Below are positions 4,546 to 41,890 of a stretch of 62,781 nucleotides of DNA, piece after piece. Both the position numbers and the translations under genes were made by a program. Position 1 is the stretch's first letter; the number at the start of each line of letters is the position of its first letter. This DNA comes from Alphaproteobacteria bacterium. Its GTDB lineage: Bacteria > Pseudomonadota > Alphaproteobacteria > SHNJ01. The notes below the pieces were generated by a model. It was given only the letters and a program-made list of their open reading frames with translations, was not told the DNA's origin and did not search any database. The stretch covers positions 8,628 to 71,408 of the forward strand of contig SHNJ01000020.1 in the NCBI GenBank assembly GCA_004295055.1, given 5' to 3'.

Positions 4546-7010
4546 TGACTTATTCCAAAGACCGTATTTCCGCCATTCTTGGTCCCACCAATACCGGCAA
4601 AACATACGTTACGATCGAACGGATGTTGACGCACACGTCCGGCATGATCGGGTTTCCGCTGCGCCTTCTGGCGCGCGAAAATTACGATAAGGTTGCGGCG
4701 ATCAAGGGCGCGGCGCAAGTGGCGCTGATTACCGGCGAAGAACAGATTATTCCAGACAACCCGCGTTATTTCATTTGCACGGTCGAAGCCATGCCGATGG
4801 AACGCATGGTCGAATTCATCGCGGTCGACGAAATTCAATTGGCGGCCGATCCGGATCGCGGCCATATTTTCACCGACCGGATTTTCAACGCGCGCGGATT
4901 GTCGGAAACGATGTTTATCGGGTCGGACACGATCCGGCATTTGCTGGAAAAAATGATTCCGGAGATTCAGGTCACTTCGCGTCCGCGATTTTCGCAATTG
5001 TCCTATGCCGGGTACAAAAAAATCGTCCGCCTGCCGCAACGCAGCGCGGTCGTCGCTTTTTCCGCCGCCGATGTTTATGCGCTGGCCGAATTTATGCGCC
5101 GTCAACGCGGCGGTACGGCGGTGGTTATGGGCGCGCTATCGCCCCGCGCGCGCAACGCGCAGGTAGGCATGTATCAGGCGGGAGAGGTCGATTATATCGT
5201 CGCAACCGACGCGATCGGCATGGGATTGAATATGGATATCGACCATGTGGCGTTTTCCACCATCCGCAAATTCGACGGGCGCAACGTGCGGCAATTGCGC
5301 GCATCGGAAATGGGCCAGATCGCCGGCCGGGCCGGGCGGTATATGCGCGATGGCACGTTCGGCACAACGGCGGACGAAGGATCGTTGCCCGATCATCTGG
5401 CCAAAAAAATCGAAGGGCATAAGTTCGATCCGGTGCAAATCGTTTATTGGCGCAACAGCAAATTGGATTTTTCTTCGGTAAAAGAATTGCAATATACGCT
5501 GAATGCGCCGCCGCCGCGCGAATTTTGCAAACGCCCGACGGGACTGGAGGATCAAGAAATTCTGGAACGCATGGCCGAAGACCAAGGTATTATGCAATTG
5601 GCGCAAGGATACGAATCGGTAAAATTGCTGTGGGAAGTTTGCCAGGTTCCCGATTACCGCAAATTGCTGACTGAAATTCACGCGCGTTTTTTAATGCAGG
5701 TTTATATGAATATCGTCACGGGCCATGGCCATATCCCGCACACCTTCATCGAAAAACAAGTCGCGAATCTGGATCGGTATGATGGCGATATGAATGCGAT
5801 CATGACGCGTTTGGCCCATATTCGCACATGGAATTACATATCGAATCGCGGCGATTGGGTGGAAAATCAGGCGGAATGGAAAGAACGTTGCCGCGATATC
5901 GAAGATCGTTTGTCCGATGCGCTGCACCTGGAATTGACCCAACGTTTCGTCGACAAACGCATTGCCGTGTTGATGAAAAAATTGGACGAAAACGCCGAAT
6001 TCACCGCCGATGTAAACAGTGCGGGCGATGTTTTGGTTGAAGGACAATTTGTTGGGCGTCTGGCCGGTTTTCGGTTCCAACCCGATCAAGATGTTTTGCA
6101 AACCGTCAGCAAACCGATCAAGATCGCCGCGCGCAAGGCGATTTTAGGGCATTTACCAAAACAAGTTGAAAAATTGGTATCAGAAGAAAAACCGGCGCTG
6201 ACATTGGCGCGCAATAACGAGATTTTATGGCATGGCAAGCCGGTGGCAAAATTGAACGCGGGCAAGGATATTTTATCGCCCGCCGTGCATGTGATTGGCG
6301 ATGAAGAAATGGATGCGGGGCTGCGCGCCAAAGCGGCAGAGCCGATTGAAAAATGGATTAATTCGTATTTGCGCGAACATTTGACCGATTTGTATAATGT
6401 AAAACAATTGCCTGCCGAAGGCGCGTTGCGCGGGTTGATATTCCAATTGGTTGAAAATCTGGGCGGCTTGCCGATGAATAAAGTCCGCGCCAGCGTTGGG
6501 GAATTGCATAACGATGCCAAAAATATGCTGGAAGAAGCCGGGTTCGATATCGGCCATCATTCGATCCACGGCAAAAATTTGAACGCGCCACGCCAAACGA
6601 TATTGCGCGCGCAATTATGGGGCCTGTTCCATAACCGTATGCACGGCGCGGCGAATCTCGCTGGAAAAATATTGGCGCAGACCGACGATAAAATTTCCGG
6701 CGACGATGCGATAGCGGCCGGATTTATCAAAGTGAATCAGATTTATGTCCGCGCCGATAAATATGAACGTATCGGCGATGTTCTGGCCGATCATTTGCGG
6801 CGAAAAAAGCCGGTTAAAATTCGCGATATCAAATCGCTGGCCACAATCAACGCGCATCAATTATGGCAAATCGCCGAGGCGCAGGGGTTTATCGCCAAAA
6901 AAATAGATCACGGCGTGATTGTTCAGGGGCGCAGAAAACAATCCGAGAAAAAGAAACAGAAATCCGAAAAGCCGGATGACAAATCGCCTTTTGCAGTTTT
7001 AAAAAATTAA
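4545..7010 (+). CDS. SUV3-like superfamily 2 RNA/DNA helicase
   Basis: An 821-residue helicase of the type found in many alphaproteobacteria and related to the mitochondrial degradosome helicase SUV3. Motif I is GPTNTGKT at residues 13-20. Motif II is VDEIQ around residue 95. Motif III is MFIGSDT, and motif VI is GQIAGRAGRYMRDGTFG near residue 260, with ATDAIGMGLNMDIDHV before it. A long C-terminal half and a Lys/Glu-rich tail (QSEKKKQKSEKPDD) follow, and the tail may bind nucleic acid. The start overlaps the preceding stop by one base, implying translational coupling. The stop codon shares the palindromic TTAA with the stop of the convergent small gene. A role in RNA turnover is inferred from family membership. 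Confidence 0.88.
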   Translation: MTYSKDRISAILGPTNTGKTYVTIERMLTHTSGMIGFPLRLLARENYDKVAAIKGAAQVALITGEEQIIPDNPRYFICTVEAMPMERMVEFIAVDEIQLAADPDRGHIFTDRIFNARGLSETMFIGSDTIRHLLEKMIPEIQVTSRPRFSQLSYAGYKKIVRLPQRSAVVAFSAADVYALAEFMRRQRGGTAVVMGALSPRARNAQVGMYQAGEVDYIVATDAIGMGLNMDIDHVAFSTIRKFDGRNVRQLRASEMGQIAGRAGRYMRDGTFGTTADEGSLPDHLAKKIEGHKFDPVQIVYWRNSKLDFSSVKELQYTLNAPPPREFCKRPTGLEDQEILERMAEDQGIMQLAQGYESVKLLWEVCQVPDYRKLLTEIHARFLMQVYMNIVTGHGHIPHTFIEKQVANLDRYDGDMNAIMTRLAHIRTWNYISNRGDWVENQAEWKERCRDIEDRLSDALHLELTQRFVDKRIAVLMKKLDENAEFTADVNSAGDVLVEGQFVGRLAGFRFQPDQDVLQTVSKPIKIAARKAILGHLPKQVEKLVSEEKPALTLARNNEILWHGKPVAKLNAGKDILSPAVHVIGDEEMDAGLRAKAAEPIEKWINSYLREHLTDLYNVKQLPAEGALRGLIFQLVENLGGLPMNKVRASVGELHNDAKNMLEEAGFDIGHHSIHGKNLNAPRQTILRAQLWGLFHNRMHGAANLAGKILAQTDDKISGDDAIAAGFIKVNQIYVRADKYERIGDVLADHLRRKKPVKIRDIKSLATINAHQLWQIAEAQGFIAKKIDHGVIVQGRRKQSEKKKQKSEKPDDKSPFAVLKN

Positions 7011-37541: not shown

Positions 37542-37576
37542 AATAAGCGGTAGATGGGATTTAACTACCGCTTATT
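37542..37576 (-). terminator. Terminator downstream of the peroxiredoxin operon
   Basis: A perfect 12-bp stem AATAAGCGGTAG/CTACCGCTTATT with an 11-base loop lies between the peroxiredoxin stop and the lgt start. It has no long T tract but its position and stem length indicate a terminator or attenuator. Confidence 0.65.
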
Positions 37577-37606: not shown

Positions 37607-38209
37607 TTAAATCGCGGTCTTATTCCGCTGAATATAATCGATCATGCCGTTGGAATTGGCCGGAATCGCCGGTTCGCCAGCCAGCCAGCCGGGCGGACAT
37701 AGCTCGCCGGTTGCGTTATGATGGGTCAGGGCATCATGCACCCGGATAATTTCGTCGATATTGCGGCCAATCGGAAAATCATACGTGGCCGAATACCTTA
37801 CCACAAAATTCCGGTCAATTAAGAAGCTGCCGCGCAGCGCTACGCTGTCGTTTACCAGCATATCGTAACCTTGACAGACAACTTTGGAAATATCGGATAC
37901 TAGCGGAAAGCTAATAATGCCTGTGCCGCCCGCCTGTGGAGGCAGTTCGCGCAATTTTAAATGCGACATGTGCGAATCGACGGAAATGCCGACCGGCTTA
38001 ATGCCGCGCGCAAAGAACATGTCCAGACGATTATTGATAGCGGTCAATTCCACCGGACATAAATAAGAAAAATCCAGCGCATAGAAAAATATCAGGCCCG
38101 AAGATCCATTTAGATATTGTTTCAAATTGAATTGGCTGTTGATGTTGCCATCCGGCATAACCGCCAGCGCGGTGAAATCCGGCGCTTCGCGTCCTACAAA
38201 TTTACTCAT
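37607..38209 (-). CDS. 2-Cys peroxiredoxin (AhpC/Prx1 family)
   Basis: A 200-residue thiol peroxidase that reduces hydrogen peroxide and organic hydroperoxides. The peroxidatic cysteine lies in LDFSYLCPVEL near residue 51, where the more usual family form is DFTFVCPTEL, so a Ser replaces the Thr three residues before the Cys. The supporting Arg is in LRGSFLIDRNF near residue 126. The resolving Cys is in GELCPPGW near residue 169. Its start overlaps the upstream gene by four bases, so it belongs to the 837/331-residue gene operon. Confidence 0.93.
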   Translation of the reverse strand: MSKFVGREAPDFTALAVMPDGNINSQFNLKQYLNGSSGLIFFYALDFSYLCPVELTAINNRLDMFFARGIKPVGISVDSHMSHLKLRELPPQAGGTGIISFPLVSDISKVVCQGYDMLVNDSVALRGSFLIDRNFVVRYSATYDFPIGRNIDEIIRVHDALTHHNATGELCPPGWLAGEPAIPANSNGMIDYIQRNKTAI

Positions 38210-39201
38210 CGGGAAGCTCCTTGATTGCGATCGCGTCCGGTAGATCCAAAAGGATTAAATACAAACGCGCGCCGCGTTGCCGGCGCAGTCGTTACTATGC
38301 CGGTATCTTGAATTCTATCGCCCTTGGGGGTGCCGGCGCTCATCGGTGTCGTTTTGCAACCAACGCAGGCGCTTTGAACCGCAGTAATATCTTGGAAGTT
38401 ACGCCCACAACCGCCACAACCGCCGCTGGATTGGCCTAAAACAGTTAAGGAAATGCCCATGGGCAATCCCGCCGCTGCGCGTAATAAATTGTCTATTTGC
38501 TTGCCCAATAAAAATTTGCCTTCCGAAATCTGGGTTTGCATCATAGCTACCAATTCCTGCGCCTTATCGTTGGTTTGGACGCGGAATGGCGATAATGTTC
38601 CAGGATAATATTCATTGTGTACGGCTTCGGTGTATCGAGTGCCGGCCGGTATTGTGGCGGCAAAGTTGCACCCAATTTTTGGCGCGCCATTTTCCAGAAA
38701 ACGCGATAAAACGCCTACATTGTCTTCCCGGTCAGGGAAACGCTCCAACATGCAGAATTGCGCTTCGCTTCCAGAAATAATGGATGCTTTGCCTGCCGTC
38801 ATATCCATTATCACTGTAATGGATTGATTGGCCACCGGATTCGGATGACGGCGCCACATAAACACATCATGGGTGGCAGTATTATGGCCCGGCGCGGCAA
38901 AGGAAAATTGCGCCGCCAAATGATACAATGGTTTGGTTATTTTATGTTCTTTGCCAAAAAATTTATACATAGCGGCAATAATTTTTGGACATTGCGCCCA
39001 ACTGCGGCTCAAGGCTTGCTGGGCAACTGGCAACGTAATGCCATTCGGATTAACGTTGTTAACATTGCCGTCTTTTGGGTCTAGCAAACACATATGCTCT
39101 TCCGGCAGAACGCCTAAAAATTGCGCGCCGAATTTTTGCTGGCCGCTGCCTATGCGCGCGACCATGCCTTTCGCATCCAAAAAACTTCTGGTAAATGACA
39201 T
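38206..39201 (-). CDS. Unrecognised Cys-rich 331-residue protein
   Basis: I do not recognise this protein. It has no signal peptide. The first 240 residues form a soluble domain (RIGSGQQKFGAQFLGVLPEEHMCLL, PLYHLAAQFSFAAPGHNTATHDVFMWRRHPNP). The C-terminal part carries a cysteine cluster GGCGGCGRNF followed by ACVGC, i.e. two close CxxC-like pairs that could bind metal or an iron-sulphur cluster. A basic tail follows. It lies 45 bp after the Gln/Pro-rich gene and overlaps the peroxiredoxin start by four bases, so the three are probably one transcription unit. Confidence 0.7.
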   Translation of the reverse strand: MSFTRSFLDAKGMVARIGSGQQKFGAQFLGVLPEEHMCLLDPKDGNVNNVNPNGITLPVAQQALSRSWAQCPKIIAAMYKFFGKEHKITKPLYHLAAQFSFAAPGHNTATHDVFMWRRHPNPVANQSITVIMDMTAGKASIISGSEAQFCMLERFPDREDNVGVLSRFLENGAPKIGCNFAATIPAGTRYTEAVHNEYYPGTLSPFRVQTNDKAQELVAMMQTQISEGKFLLGKQIDNLLRAAAGLPMGISLTVLGQSSGGCGGCGRNFQDITAVQSACVGCKTTPMSAGTPKGDRIQDTGIVTTAPATRRAFVFNPFGSTGRDRNQGASR

Positions 39202-39245
39202 ACCCGTTACTCCTTTGTATATAATTTAGTGCCGGCTGTTATGCA

Positions 39246-41759
39246 TTAGCGCGTAGCCGGATTTCTGCCTTTAAACAATTTTCCGAACAAATCGCCCAAA
39301 AAAGAATTTTTGACCATTGATCCTCCAATGGCTGGGCAAGCGGACGTAAATTCGGCTTTACCTTCTTTGTTTTGCTGTTCGCTTCGCCTGTTGAACGCAT
39401 TCAGGTCTACGTCCGGTGCTTTATTGACGGCATTAATACCGTTTACCACGGCAACAGGTTGTATTCCACCGTTTGTTTTGCGTATTGCTTCTTCTTGGCC
39501 GAGTTCCGCTTGGCGGTTGGTTCCTTTTTCTTGCGGTCTATCGGCGCCATCTATTGCATCCGCTTTTTCCTGGCCATTGGTCGGTTCATATTTCTTGCCC
39601 CCGCCACCGCAACAACCTGGTTCACCATTACATGGTCCGCAAGTATTTTGATCAACCGCAGTAACAGCGATTTTATCGCGGATATATTTCTGGCCGCTAG
39701 GCATGATTACGCGTTCCCGGTTAGTATCATAAGAAAGCGTTATGCCTAACGATTGTAATACTTTGCCAACCGCGGATTTTTCGTCGACGATTTTGCCTAT
39801 GGCGGTGGTTTCCCGAATTATTTCAGTTTTAAAGGTATTGGATGCGGCTGATTCAGCCGATGACGCAGGGCGCGGCGATTCTATGGGTACGGCAGCGCGG
39901 TCAGCCGGTGCTGGTGCAGATGGTGCCGGGACAGGTTTCGATTCCTGGATAGGCGTTGGCGCGGCCGGTGTAGGAGCAGTTGCGCGCGCCGAAACTTGTG
40001 GTTGTTGCGGTGTGGAGGTGTTTGCGGAAGTAGGTGCAGCGCGATCCGACACGGGTTGTGCAACCGGGACTACACGGCTGTCATTGCCGCGAACGGAAAC
40101 ATTGGATGGCGGCGTTACTTGTTGCGGCGCTGTCCACGGCGTTGCGGTTTTTGTGGACGATGTAAAATTGGAATTGGCCGGGATAACAGTTACCGAAGTT
40201 CCGGCATGCCAGCCGACATTATTGGTCGATGGACGCAAGCCAAGAACATTGACATTGCTGCGGTTCAAATCGCTAACTATCTGCCTGGTGGTGACGGGTG
40301 CGGCTATGGACGAGCCGGCGATATTGCCAGGAACGCGCGTCGCTGCATCCCGCAACTGCAATAAACGGTCCGGTGTAGTAATTGATTTTCGGTCTTGGCC
40401 CGCCACAATTTTAAGATCGACTGCTTTGCCTTGGGTAGCTTTGTTGTCATTTACAGGGGCTGGCACTTGTGCTGGATTTTGCCCTGCACGCAATTGGGCA
40501 ATTTCCCGTACCGCTTGGCGCACTTGGTCACGGATTTCCCGAGCCGGTTCCGGGCGCAGCGCGGTTTGGGTAACGCGCATCGAGGCTTGTTGCTGCCAGA
40601 AACGGGTTAGGGATTCGGGTAAACGAATGGTTTGAGTTTGGGCGACGCCGCGCACATCGTTGGTATTTGGCACGCGCAGAATGCCTTGCGCCCATTCGCT
40701 TTGCACCCGCAACATCGCGCGCGATACTTGCAATGTTTGGGTCAAAGCCTGCATGGTTGCGGCGGTCATGGCGAATTTTGGCAGGGCGGCGAAGTTGACT
40801 TGCGGCGCTTGACCGGGCTGGCCATTGCGCGCCGGGCCATTTTGGGCTTGTCCGGTTTGCGCGGCGATTTGCGCGTTAATCGCGCGGGCATAATCCATCA
40901 ATGGCTTTAATGCCGGCGATTGGAATGTTTTCACCGTGGCTTGCAATTGCGCGATTTGCATTTGCAATACCTGTACATATTTCATGTTGGTATTGTTTTG
41001 CACCGCCTGTTTCAGCATATCCTGCAATTTGGTCAATTGCTGCTGAAATACTTGTTCTAATGGCAGCAATTGCCTTGCCACCACAATCGCGGTCAGTTGC
41101 GATAACGGCACTTTGGCCAGGCCTTGTTGCGTCAATTGCTGGCGCAATTCGGTAATCGCGGCGCGTTCGGTTTTAATCAGCGCTTTGAATGCGGCTTCGG
41201 GATTTGGGCCATTGGCGGCAATTTTCAATTGCTGATACAATCGCTGAATCATTTCGCTGCGCACCCAATATTGGGCATTCTGCGCATTTAAAGACGCTTG
41301 TTGCAGGGCGTAAAAATGCAAAACTTGAATCAATTGCTGCATCCGGCGCACGGATGGTTTTTCAAGGCCTGGAATGTCGCGATCATCCAGTAAATATTCT
41401 AAAACCGATTCAATGGTAAAATCGGCCTTGCCCATCTCGGCCATCAATTCGGCCAGAAGTTTCATTTGCAATTCTGGATTGGCAAGATCCGGATCTAGGA
41501 CATTTTCTTCTTCATTGTCGTTGCCAACGGCGCCGCGCGCATCGCCCGACATACTGACTTTGCCGGCGGGGCCAGCGATAGCGGCGCCTTGTTCATTGCT
41601 TTGAAATTGGGCGTCGATAGTGCCGATCGCCGTGGTCTTGCCGCGGGTAATTGCCGCAATGCCGCCGAGCGTGTCATCGGTAAAACGAGCCGTCGCTTCG
41701 ACGAGTTCGTCGGTGACAGGCGCTTCTGGGTCGAATTCTAATGTGGCAGTGGCGGTCAT
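39246..41759 (-). CDS. Unrecognised 837-residue Gln/Ala/Pro-rich protein with Cys cluster
   Basis: I know of no family for this protein. It begins with an acidic segment (residues 1-100), then a long helix-prone Gln/Ala-rich part (residues about 130-450, e.g. QQLTQQGLAKVPLSQLTAIV). A linker of Ser, Thr, Pro and Val follows (about 500-660, APTPAAPTPIQESKPVPAPSAP). Near residue 700 there is a cysteine cluster CGPCNGEPGCCGGGGKK. No signal peptide or transmembrane helix is seen at either end. The operon partners are a Cys-rich protein and a peroxiredoxin. Structural or scaffold function is a guess. Confidence 0.7.
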   Translation of the reverse strand: MTATATLEFDPEAPVTDELVEATARFTDDTLGGIAAITRGKTTAIGTIDAQFQSNEQGAAIAGPAGKVSMSGDARGAVGNDNEEENVLDPDLANPELQMKLLAELMAEMGKADFTIESVLEYLLDDRDIPGLEKPSVRRMQQLIQVLHFYALQQASLNAQNAQYWVRSEMIQRLYQQLKIAANGPNPEAAFKALIKTERAAITELRQQLTQQGLAKVPLSQLTAIVVARQLLPLEQVFQQQLTKLQDMLKQAVQNNTNMKYVQVLQMQIAQLQATVKTFQSPALKPLMDYARAINAQIAAQTGQAQNGPARNGQPGQAPQVNFAALPKFAMTAATMQALTQTLQVSRAMLRVQSEWAQGILRVPNTNDVRGVAQTQTIRLPESLTRFWQQQASMRVTQTALRPEPAREIRDQVRQAVREIAQLRAGQNPAQVPAPVNDNKATQGKAVDLKIVAGQDRKSITTPDRLLQLRDAATRVPGNIAGSSIAAPVTTRQIVSDLNRSNVNVLGLRPSTNNVGWHAGTSVTVIPANSNFTSSTKTATPWTAPQQVTPPSNVSVRGNDSRVVPVAQPVSDRAAPTSANTSTPQQPQVSARATAPTPAAPTPIQESKPVPAPSAPAPADRAAVPIESPRPASSAESAASNTFKTEIIRETTAIGKIVDEKSAVGKVLQSLGITLSYDTNRERVIMPSGQKYIRDKIAVTAVDQNTCGPCNGEPGCCGGGGKKYEPTNGQEKADAIDGADRPQEKGTNRQAELGQEEAIRKTNGGIQPVAVVNGINAVNKAPDVDLNAFNRRSEQQNKEGKAEFTSACPAIGGSMVKNSFLGDLFGKLFKGRNPATR

Positions 41760-41890
41760 TTATAATTCCGGTATTTTTATTACCGAAATTATTAACGCTT
41801 TTCAGGCATGACGGCAACCTAAACTGCTATAGTTTTAATTTAGAACAATTCTAAATTGGTTGAAAAAAGTCTCAGCTTGCCAAGGCTTTA

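Follow-up and report, generated by a model that had tools for sequence, protein, structure and literature searches.

What do two proteins without a known family and a peroxiredoxin (Prx) do together? The question is raised by three genes, A, B and prx, that lie in tandem on the minus strand of a 62,781-nucleotide stretch of alphaproteobacterial DNA (lineage SHNJ01; GenBank assembly GCA_004295055.1, contig SHNJ01000020.1, positions 8,628 to 71,408), here called the window. A reading of the bare sequence (the original prediction) had proposed an undescribed redox, metal-binding or thiol-based assembly system. The analysis presented here points, tentatively, to a single conserved operon with which Alphaproteobacteria would respond to iron or zinc limitation and handle metals through thiols. 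Direct support comes from the gene content, which recurs across families, from the single divergent subfamily to which the Prx proteins belong, and from the predicted Irr, Fur or Zur operators. The features of the operon on which the argument depends are the following.

39246-41759, minus strand: gene A, 837 aa, Gln/Ala/Pro-rich, no known family, with a C-terminal cysteine knuckle
39609-39641, minus strand: residues 707-717 of A, CGPCNGEPGCC (C-x2-C-x5-CC), the sole stretch conserved with the A protein of the relative G001
38206-39201, minus strand: gene B, encoding a 331-aa orphan with C262xxC265-x13-C279xxC282
38356-38418, minus strand: candidate four-cysteine site of B (CGGC ... CVGC), proposed from its sequence
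37607-38209, minus strand: prx, divergent subfamily, 200 aa; peroxidatic cysteine (Cp) Cys51, resolving cysteine (Cr) Cys171 and Arg126 kept, Pro44 replaced by Ala and Thr48 by Ser
41839-41855, minus strand: perfect Irr box (iron control element, ICE) TTTAGAATTGTTCTAAA, 79 bp 5' of the A start

The coordinates bear out the three tandem open reading frames of the original prediction and the four-base overlap of B and prx (ATGA, 38206-38209); A and B are separated by 44 bp. Both B and prx are preceded by AAGGAG (39210-39215 and 38217-38222, respectively), giving good ribosome-binding sites. The cysteine motifs read earlier are also present, CGPCNGEPGCC in A, and GGCGGCG and ACVGC in B, the latter two giving CxxC-x13-CxxC. 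The term "giant" does not suit A, whose 837 residues are unexceptional.

Relatives of the operon were located by following Prx rather than A or B. Besides the window, seven further loci combining A, B (or a NifU-type gene) and prx were found (G001, G033, G047, G133, G383, L148 and L150). All carriers are uncultured Alphaproteobacteria, and the five relatives with a G number belong to five families, one of which is the window's own. In each locus an A-like protein whose C-terminal part bears a cysteine cluster is accompanied by a small protein resembling B or NifU, and by a Prx belonging in every case to the same fast-evolving subfamily. G001, the sole other genome of the window's family in the comparison, has the three genes in identical order; its A (834 aa) contains CEGCNGEKGCC and two motifs of the CGPxCxCGK type, its B has 173 aa, and prx follows. 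The G047 locus encodes an A of at least 1411 aa, a 446-aa B and Prx, while L148 (metagenome-assembled genome ETNP7_MAG_65) encodes an 898-aa A with two HPxGCTCxSC repeats, B and Prx; the four-base B/prx overlap is found in both. The order is B paralogue, A (639 aa), B and Prx in G383, and Prx, A (1091 aa, with three CxGCxGCG...C repeats) and B in G133. Positional equivalents of the window B are present in G001, G047, G133, G383 and L148. In the remaining two loci a NifU-domain gene (PF01106) adjoins A and prx: G033, whose A carries CAGCNGNCCQC, and L150, with a 682-aa A and the NifU-domain gene on the opposite strand. Gene order, which the original prediction had proposed to compare in relatives, is therefore conserved. 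The two B paralogues of G383 (L075:3194-3778 and 5818-6486) flank A and match each other with an E value of 4e-7, and the first has a Zur-like box of its own.

The recurrence of this grouping in other families indicates more than chance. The fact that A and B scarcely align between lineages would be expected if an ordinary Prx simply lay next to unrelated orphans, but the recurrent order, the four-base overlaps, the single Prx subfamily and the boxes found in 7/7 upstream regions make such a fortuitous neighbourhood scarcely credible.

At least one upstream Irr, Fur or Zur box was found at every locus whose 5' end is intact (six in all). The Irr box of the window scored 14/14, and G001 has a box of the same type with one mismatch (13/14) plus a Zur-like box (13/14). 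A Fur box was found in G133 (15/19) and L150 (17/19), a Zur box in L148 (13/14), and both a Zur (13/14) and a Fur box (17/19) in G383. Each of these scores was attained by 0/500 dinucleotide shuffles. Any Irr, Fur or Zur box was present in 7/7 upstream regions of the system, compared to 1/103 among the remaining genes of these loci, and the sole positive among the latter lies inside the L148 operon. The boxes were absent from 239 genes of other loci and from 23 canonical prx genes. A Zur-like box (13/14) is located within 250 bp 5' of B in L148 (L148:6266-6515), within the operon.

The type of box fits the regulators predicted from the genomes. The window genome encodes IrrA (G000:C17:71919-72206; NF045678, 164.2 bits at a cut-off of 150) and a Zur-like protein, with no Fur, and G001 encodes IrrA (168.3 bits with the same model and cut-off). 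Fur-like and Zur-like proteins are encoded by G133, and Fur-like, IrrA and Zur-like proteins by G383. The window operon thus has both an operator near its promoter region and the matching regulator gene in the genome. Downstream of the L148 operon lie genes for a GTPase of the COG0523/CobW group, an ABC ATPase, a permease of the FtsX type, a protein with DUF3299 and a Zur-like regulator. Taken together as predicted sites, the boxes make it very probable that the A-B-Prx operon is controlled by metal limitation. A second Irr/peroxiredoxin neighbourhood was noted in G383, where irrA lies ∼170 bp 5' of another AhpC/TSA-family gene (G383:C7:130925-131794).

The window Prx is a genuine member of the AhpC/TSA family (PF00578, 9.8e-23), and its best relative in the PDB, 1zof, was aligned over residues 5-197 (E value of 1.9e-50). 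The AhpC/TSA fold, Cp with the catalytic Arg, and the C-terminal Cr of a typical 2-Cys Prx are all found in it. Both catalytic cysteines and Arg126, Glu54 and Trp175 are present, yet position 48 is Ser and Ala44 breaks the PxxxT/S motif that precedes Cp. The earlier identification as a 2-Cys Prx thus holds for the catalytic cysteines and not for the active-site Pro, and the protein is not an ordinary member of that class. In a tree of 48 sequences (39 canonical Prx, the eight system Prx and one long-branched planctomycete protein), a 100/99 branch set the 39 canonical Prx apart, with the eight system Prx and the planctomycete sequence outside. Constraining the eight system Prx to one clade improved the likelihood (+10.7) and was not rejected by the approximately unbiased (AU) test (p-AU 0.75).

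The active site has changed in the subfamily. Whereas 37/37 canonical proteins keep the Pro of PxxxT/S, another residue stands there in 7/8 system Prx; the Thr has become Ser or Gly in 8/8, and Cr is lost in 5/8 (G133 among them), compared to 0/37 canonical proteins. Cp is kept in 7/8 and the catalytic Arg in 8/8; the Arg, Glu and Trp positions are invariant, although the G033 protein lacks Cp. Judging from these residues, the subfamily is Prx by descent, with an altered chemistry or use. The G033 Prx (L034:4852-5487) has Glu in place of Cp and Thr in place of Cr, with Pro44 retained, and is a pseudo-peroxiredoxin.

The same residues bear on the main rival, a plain metal-sparing peroxide defence, in which Prx would be a metal-free peroxidase replacing heme or iron enzymes, with A giving resolving thiols and metal binding being incidental. 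Retention of Cp in seven proteins and of Arg in all eight agrees with this explanation, as does the observation that the five Cr-less Prx sit beside A proteins with generally more C-terminal cysteines (10, 5, 12, 6 and 5, compared to 5, 4 and 4 beside Cr-keeping Prx; a weak, post hoc comparison). Moreover, the system Prx is the sole Prx1-type relative found by sequence in each of the window genome (G000), G001 and G033, and Irr-controlled peroxide-defence genes exist in Rhodobacter (PMC3413700). However, a peroxidase role alone is at odds with the loss of the otherwise invariant Pro in all but one protein and of Cp in G033, G000 holds eight other AhpC/TSA-fold proteins, and the Zur control and zinc cluster of L148 as well as the NifU neighbours are left unexplained. 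We therefore regard peroxide defence alone as somewhat unlikely, and a metal-limitation role as the better frame for the system.

Alternatively, the role of the Prx-like protein could be structural or chaperone-like, with catalysis secondary: as a decameric ring it would gather A into storage granules or inclusions. The G033 protein, in which Cp is lost while Arg, Glu and Trp are invariant, is consistent with this possibility, as is the long, low-complexity, Q/A/P-rich nature of A. The Cp retained in the seven other proteins argues against this possibility, and a mainly structural function appears unlikely.

The A protein of the window contains 9.2% Q, 13.1% A and 7.0% P, and its five cysteines all fall in the last quarter. 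Of the 58 cysteines in the eight A proteins, 51 lie in the final quarter, grouped in threes to fives. The spacings of the cysteines in A and in the window B would suit tetrahedral Zn/Fe or Fe-S sites. Since the B protein of G383 has no cysteine at all, the cysteine cluster of B is not a general feature, and the description of B as Cys-rich does not hold for the relatives in general.

The earlier statement that A and B match no known family was confirmed: nothing was found above cut-off in Pfam or NCBIfam for either protein, nor a PDB match for B. Weak Pfam matches (ICMT, CSTF_C, SAM_KSR1) were under cut-off and were regarded as chance. A sequence search with B gave no relative in 385 class genomes, GTDB species genomes, viral contigs or plasmids. 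The window and G133 B proteins share a short GCGGC/ACGGC motif with NifU-type proteins. An assignment of B as a NifU domain was rejected, as PF01106 gave no match to either protein even at an E value of 10; in hhalign, G133 B and the L150 Nfu were matched with a probability of 29%. Structure predictions were of low confidence (predicted local distance difference test, pLDDT, of 31 for B and 39 for the N-terminal domain of L148 A) because of the lack of homologues. In G047, the A tail EECPVVGPLIKAQKKAE resembles the N-terminus of B, NSCPVIEPLFEAQREVE (L038:4200-4350), and the tail of the window A contains SACPAIGGSM; the similar sequences may represent a shared docking motif.

A might also be viewed as an exported metal-capturing protein (a ribosomally synthesised metallophore or surface binder), with B and Prx engaged in its folding or disulfide chemistry. 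The operators are of a kind typical for uptake genes, transporter genes lie near the L148 operon, and the rapid divergence and patchy distribution of A resemble those of secreted factors. However, inspection by eye revealed no evident signal peptide or membrane segment in any A protein, and no evident signal peptide in the window B or Prx. The operon showed no gene for an MNIO, a radical SAM protein, a peptidase or a dedicated exporter, and the Prx and NifU partners are of cytoplasmic types. An exported A is thus improbable.

For the iron- or zinc-limitation operon, a detailed mechanism can be outlined, which is possible, if on the whole doubtful. Under shortage of Fe or Zn, a regulator of the Fur superfamily would release transcription (or, in the case of Irr, change it), and three cytoplasmic proteins would be made. 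A would serve as a long scaffold, for the most part of low complexity, and would hold thiophilic metal (Zn2+, Fe2+ or an Fe-S cluster) in C-terminal knuckles of three and four cysteines. The metal or cluster would be delivered to A, or removed from it, by B, the place of which a NifU-like carrier would take in two lineages. Prx, presumably a ring like its relatives, would dock on A and react with peroxide, and the cysteines of A would serve as its resolving partner, replacing the lost Cr, or as its regulated target. The peroxide state might then decide whether the thiolates of A retain or release metal; conversely, Prx might keep the thiols of A in working order at times when the cell is unable to make metal-dependent peroxidases. 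The broader proposal of a new metal-handling class, namely a fast-diverging cytoplasmic scaffold that stores or passes on Fe, Zn or Fe-S and is gated by a dedicated Prx that, in several lineages, lost its own Cr and borrows scaffold thiols, seems to us rather doubtful.

Several points weigh against a common metal-limitation operon. The operators are predicted consensus matches, with the Fur and Zur consensus taken from general knowledge. The Irr box of the window is the only site in its genome at up to one mismatch to TTTAGAANNNTTCTAAA, and with this single site an Irr regulon is not demonstrated there. The A proteins of the window and G001 (L032:2450-4954) can be aligned only over C-x2-C-N-G-E-x-G-C-C (BLAST E value of 7e-5). 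In all-pairs comparisons only the cysteine cluster was shared, except between L148 and L150, which have a common N-terminal domain (28% identity over 239 residues, E value of 8e-11). Common descent of A would for this reason rest on position and architecture, and not on alignment. The B equivalents, too, are mostly without detectable mutual homology, and are equated by their position and architecture. Because the G033 Prx lacks Cp, the peroxide-gating step is not universal. Finally, the distribution is patchy, the operon being present in 6/385 class genomes sampled, and as most relatives lack it, it is dispensable.

The Prx profile identified only the window's own genome among 398 phylum genomes and gave no match in viral contigs, and no further members were found among relatives of G383, G047 and G133. 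Among the matches listed for genome_contigs (L091-L160; Gallionella, Nitrotoga and others), most were canonical 2-Cys Prx with no A or B neighbours. A candidate Prx from G395 also proved canonical. Outside this system, G093 carries two divergent Prx copies ∼18 kb apart (L076:6406-7014 and L077:8312-9079), one of them with an extra hydrophobic N-terminal segment.

Two further elements were recognised at the borders of the window operon.

41759-41795, minus strand: hairpin with 15-nt arms, 87% complementary, its 3' arm reaching the A start codon (z-score -3.3)
37542-37576, minus strand: perfect stem of 12 bp in the prx-lgt interval (z-score -4.45)

The first may provide translational control or a second operator; no Shine-Dalgarno sequence is visible at this hairpin abutting the start codon. 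The second is probably the end of the operon transcript, which was placed before lgt because this perfect hairpin comes after prx. Its loop of 11 nt and the weakness of its T run explain why a simple terminator scan missed it, and the matches of the simple sigma-70/terminator scan were no more numerous than in shuffles. The neighbours of the operon include genes for an epimerase and a methyltransferase, lgt, and others, with no DUF692 gene among them.

The system envisaged in the original prediction agrees above all with the Irr, Fur or Zur operators, which that prediction had not noticed, and also with the cysteine knuckles and with the NifU genes next to A and prx in two of the relatives, while nothing shows the assembly role suggested with it. 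Metal-starvation regulons are a main route to new metal-handling proteins, and here an operon with two family-less proteins and an altered Prx is preceded, depending on the lineage, by predicted sites for each of the three regulators of the Fur superfamily. If the proposed role is correct, peroxide chemistry would be tied directly to metal storage or delivery, a peroxiredoxin would have been repurposed as a metal-scaffold partner, and these genes of uncultured, small-genome Alphaproteobacteria would gain a first testable function.

No description of an A-B-Prx operon was found in open-access papers. With 5 Cys in 837 aa, A is unlike the small, Cys-rich metallothioneins, only its C-terminal motif being metallothionein-like, and its length and the lack of a DUF692 neighbour set it apart from MNIO bufferins, which combine a short secreted precursor with DUF692. 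The likeness to NifU/Nfu carriers consists of NifU genes that in G033 and L150 lie next to A and prx, and of the GCGGC/ACGGC motif in the window and G133 B. With the typical 2-Cys Prx of Helicobacter pylori (AhpC, 1zof) the window protein shares the full-length fold, Cys51, Cys171, Arg126, Glu54 and Trp175, but it differs in Ala44 and Ser48, and its subfamily often lacks Cr. Whereas canonical homologues in G051, G010 and G002 adjoin thioredoxin reductase, the system Prx does not, and is coupled to A, B and metal operators.

Zinc limitation in Vibrio parahaemolyticus involves zrgE/B/C of the Zur-regulated zrg operon (PMC9817125), and COG0523 belongs to Zur regulons (PMC6103462). The L148 locus shares with these operons COG0523, an ABC ATPase, a permease, DUF3299 and a Zur-like regulator. 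However, no description of A, B and Prx as their members was found in the open-access papers searched, most A-B-Prx loci would use Fur or Irr, and A has cysteine knuckles instead of a His-rich periplasmic domain. The Irr regulon has no known homologue of A or B, and the window genome has only one strong site; nevertheless, the window and G001 genomes both encode IrrA, and the palindrome that precedes A in each is of the same type as known Irr sites, such as the experimentally bound P3 site of isc-suf in Rhodobacter sphaeroides, TTAGAAATATTCTAGA (PMC6956336). Peroxide-defence genes are among the known Irr targets, and the regulon includes mbfA and ccpA (PMC3413700).

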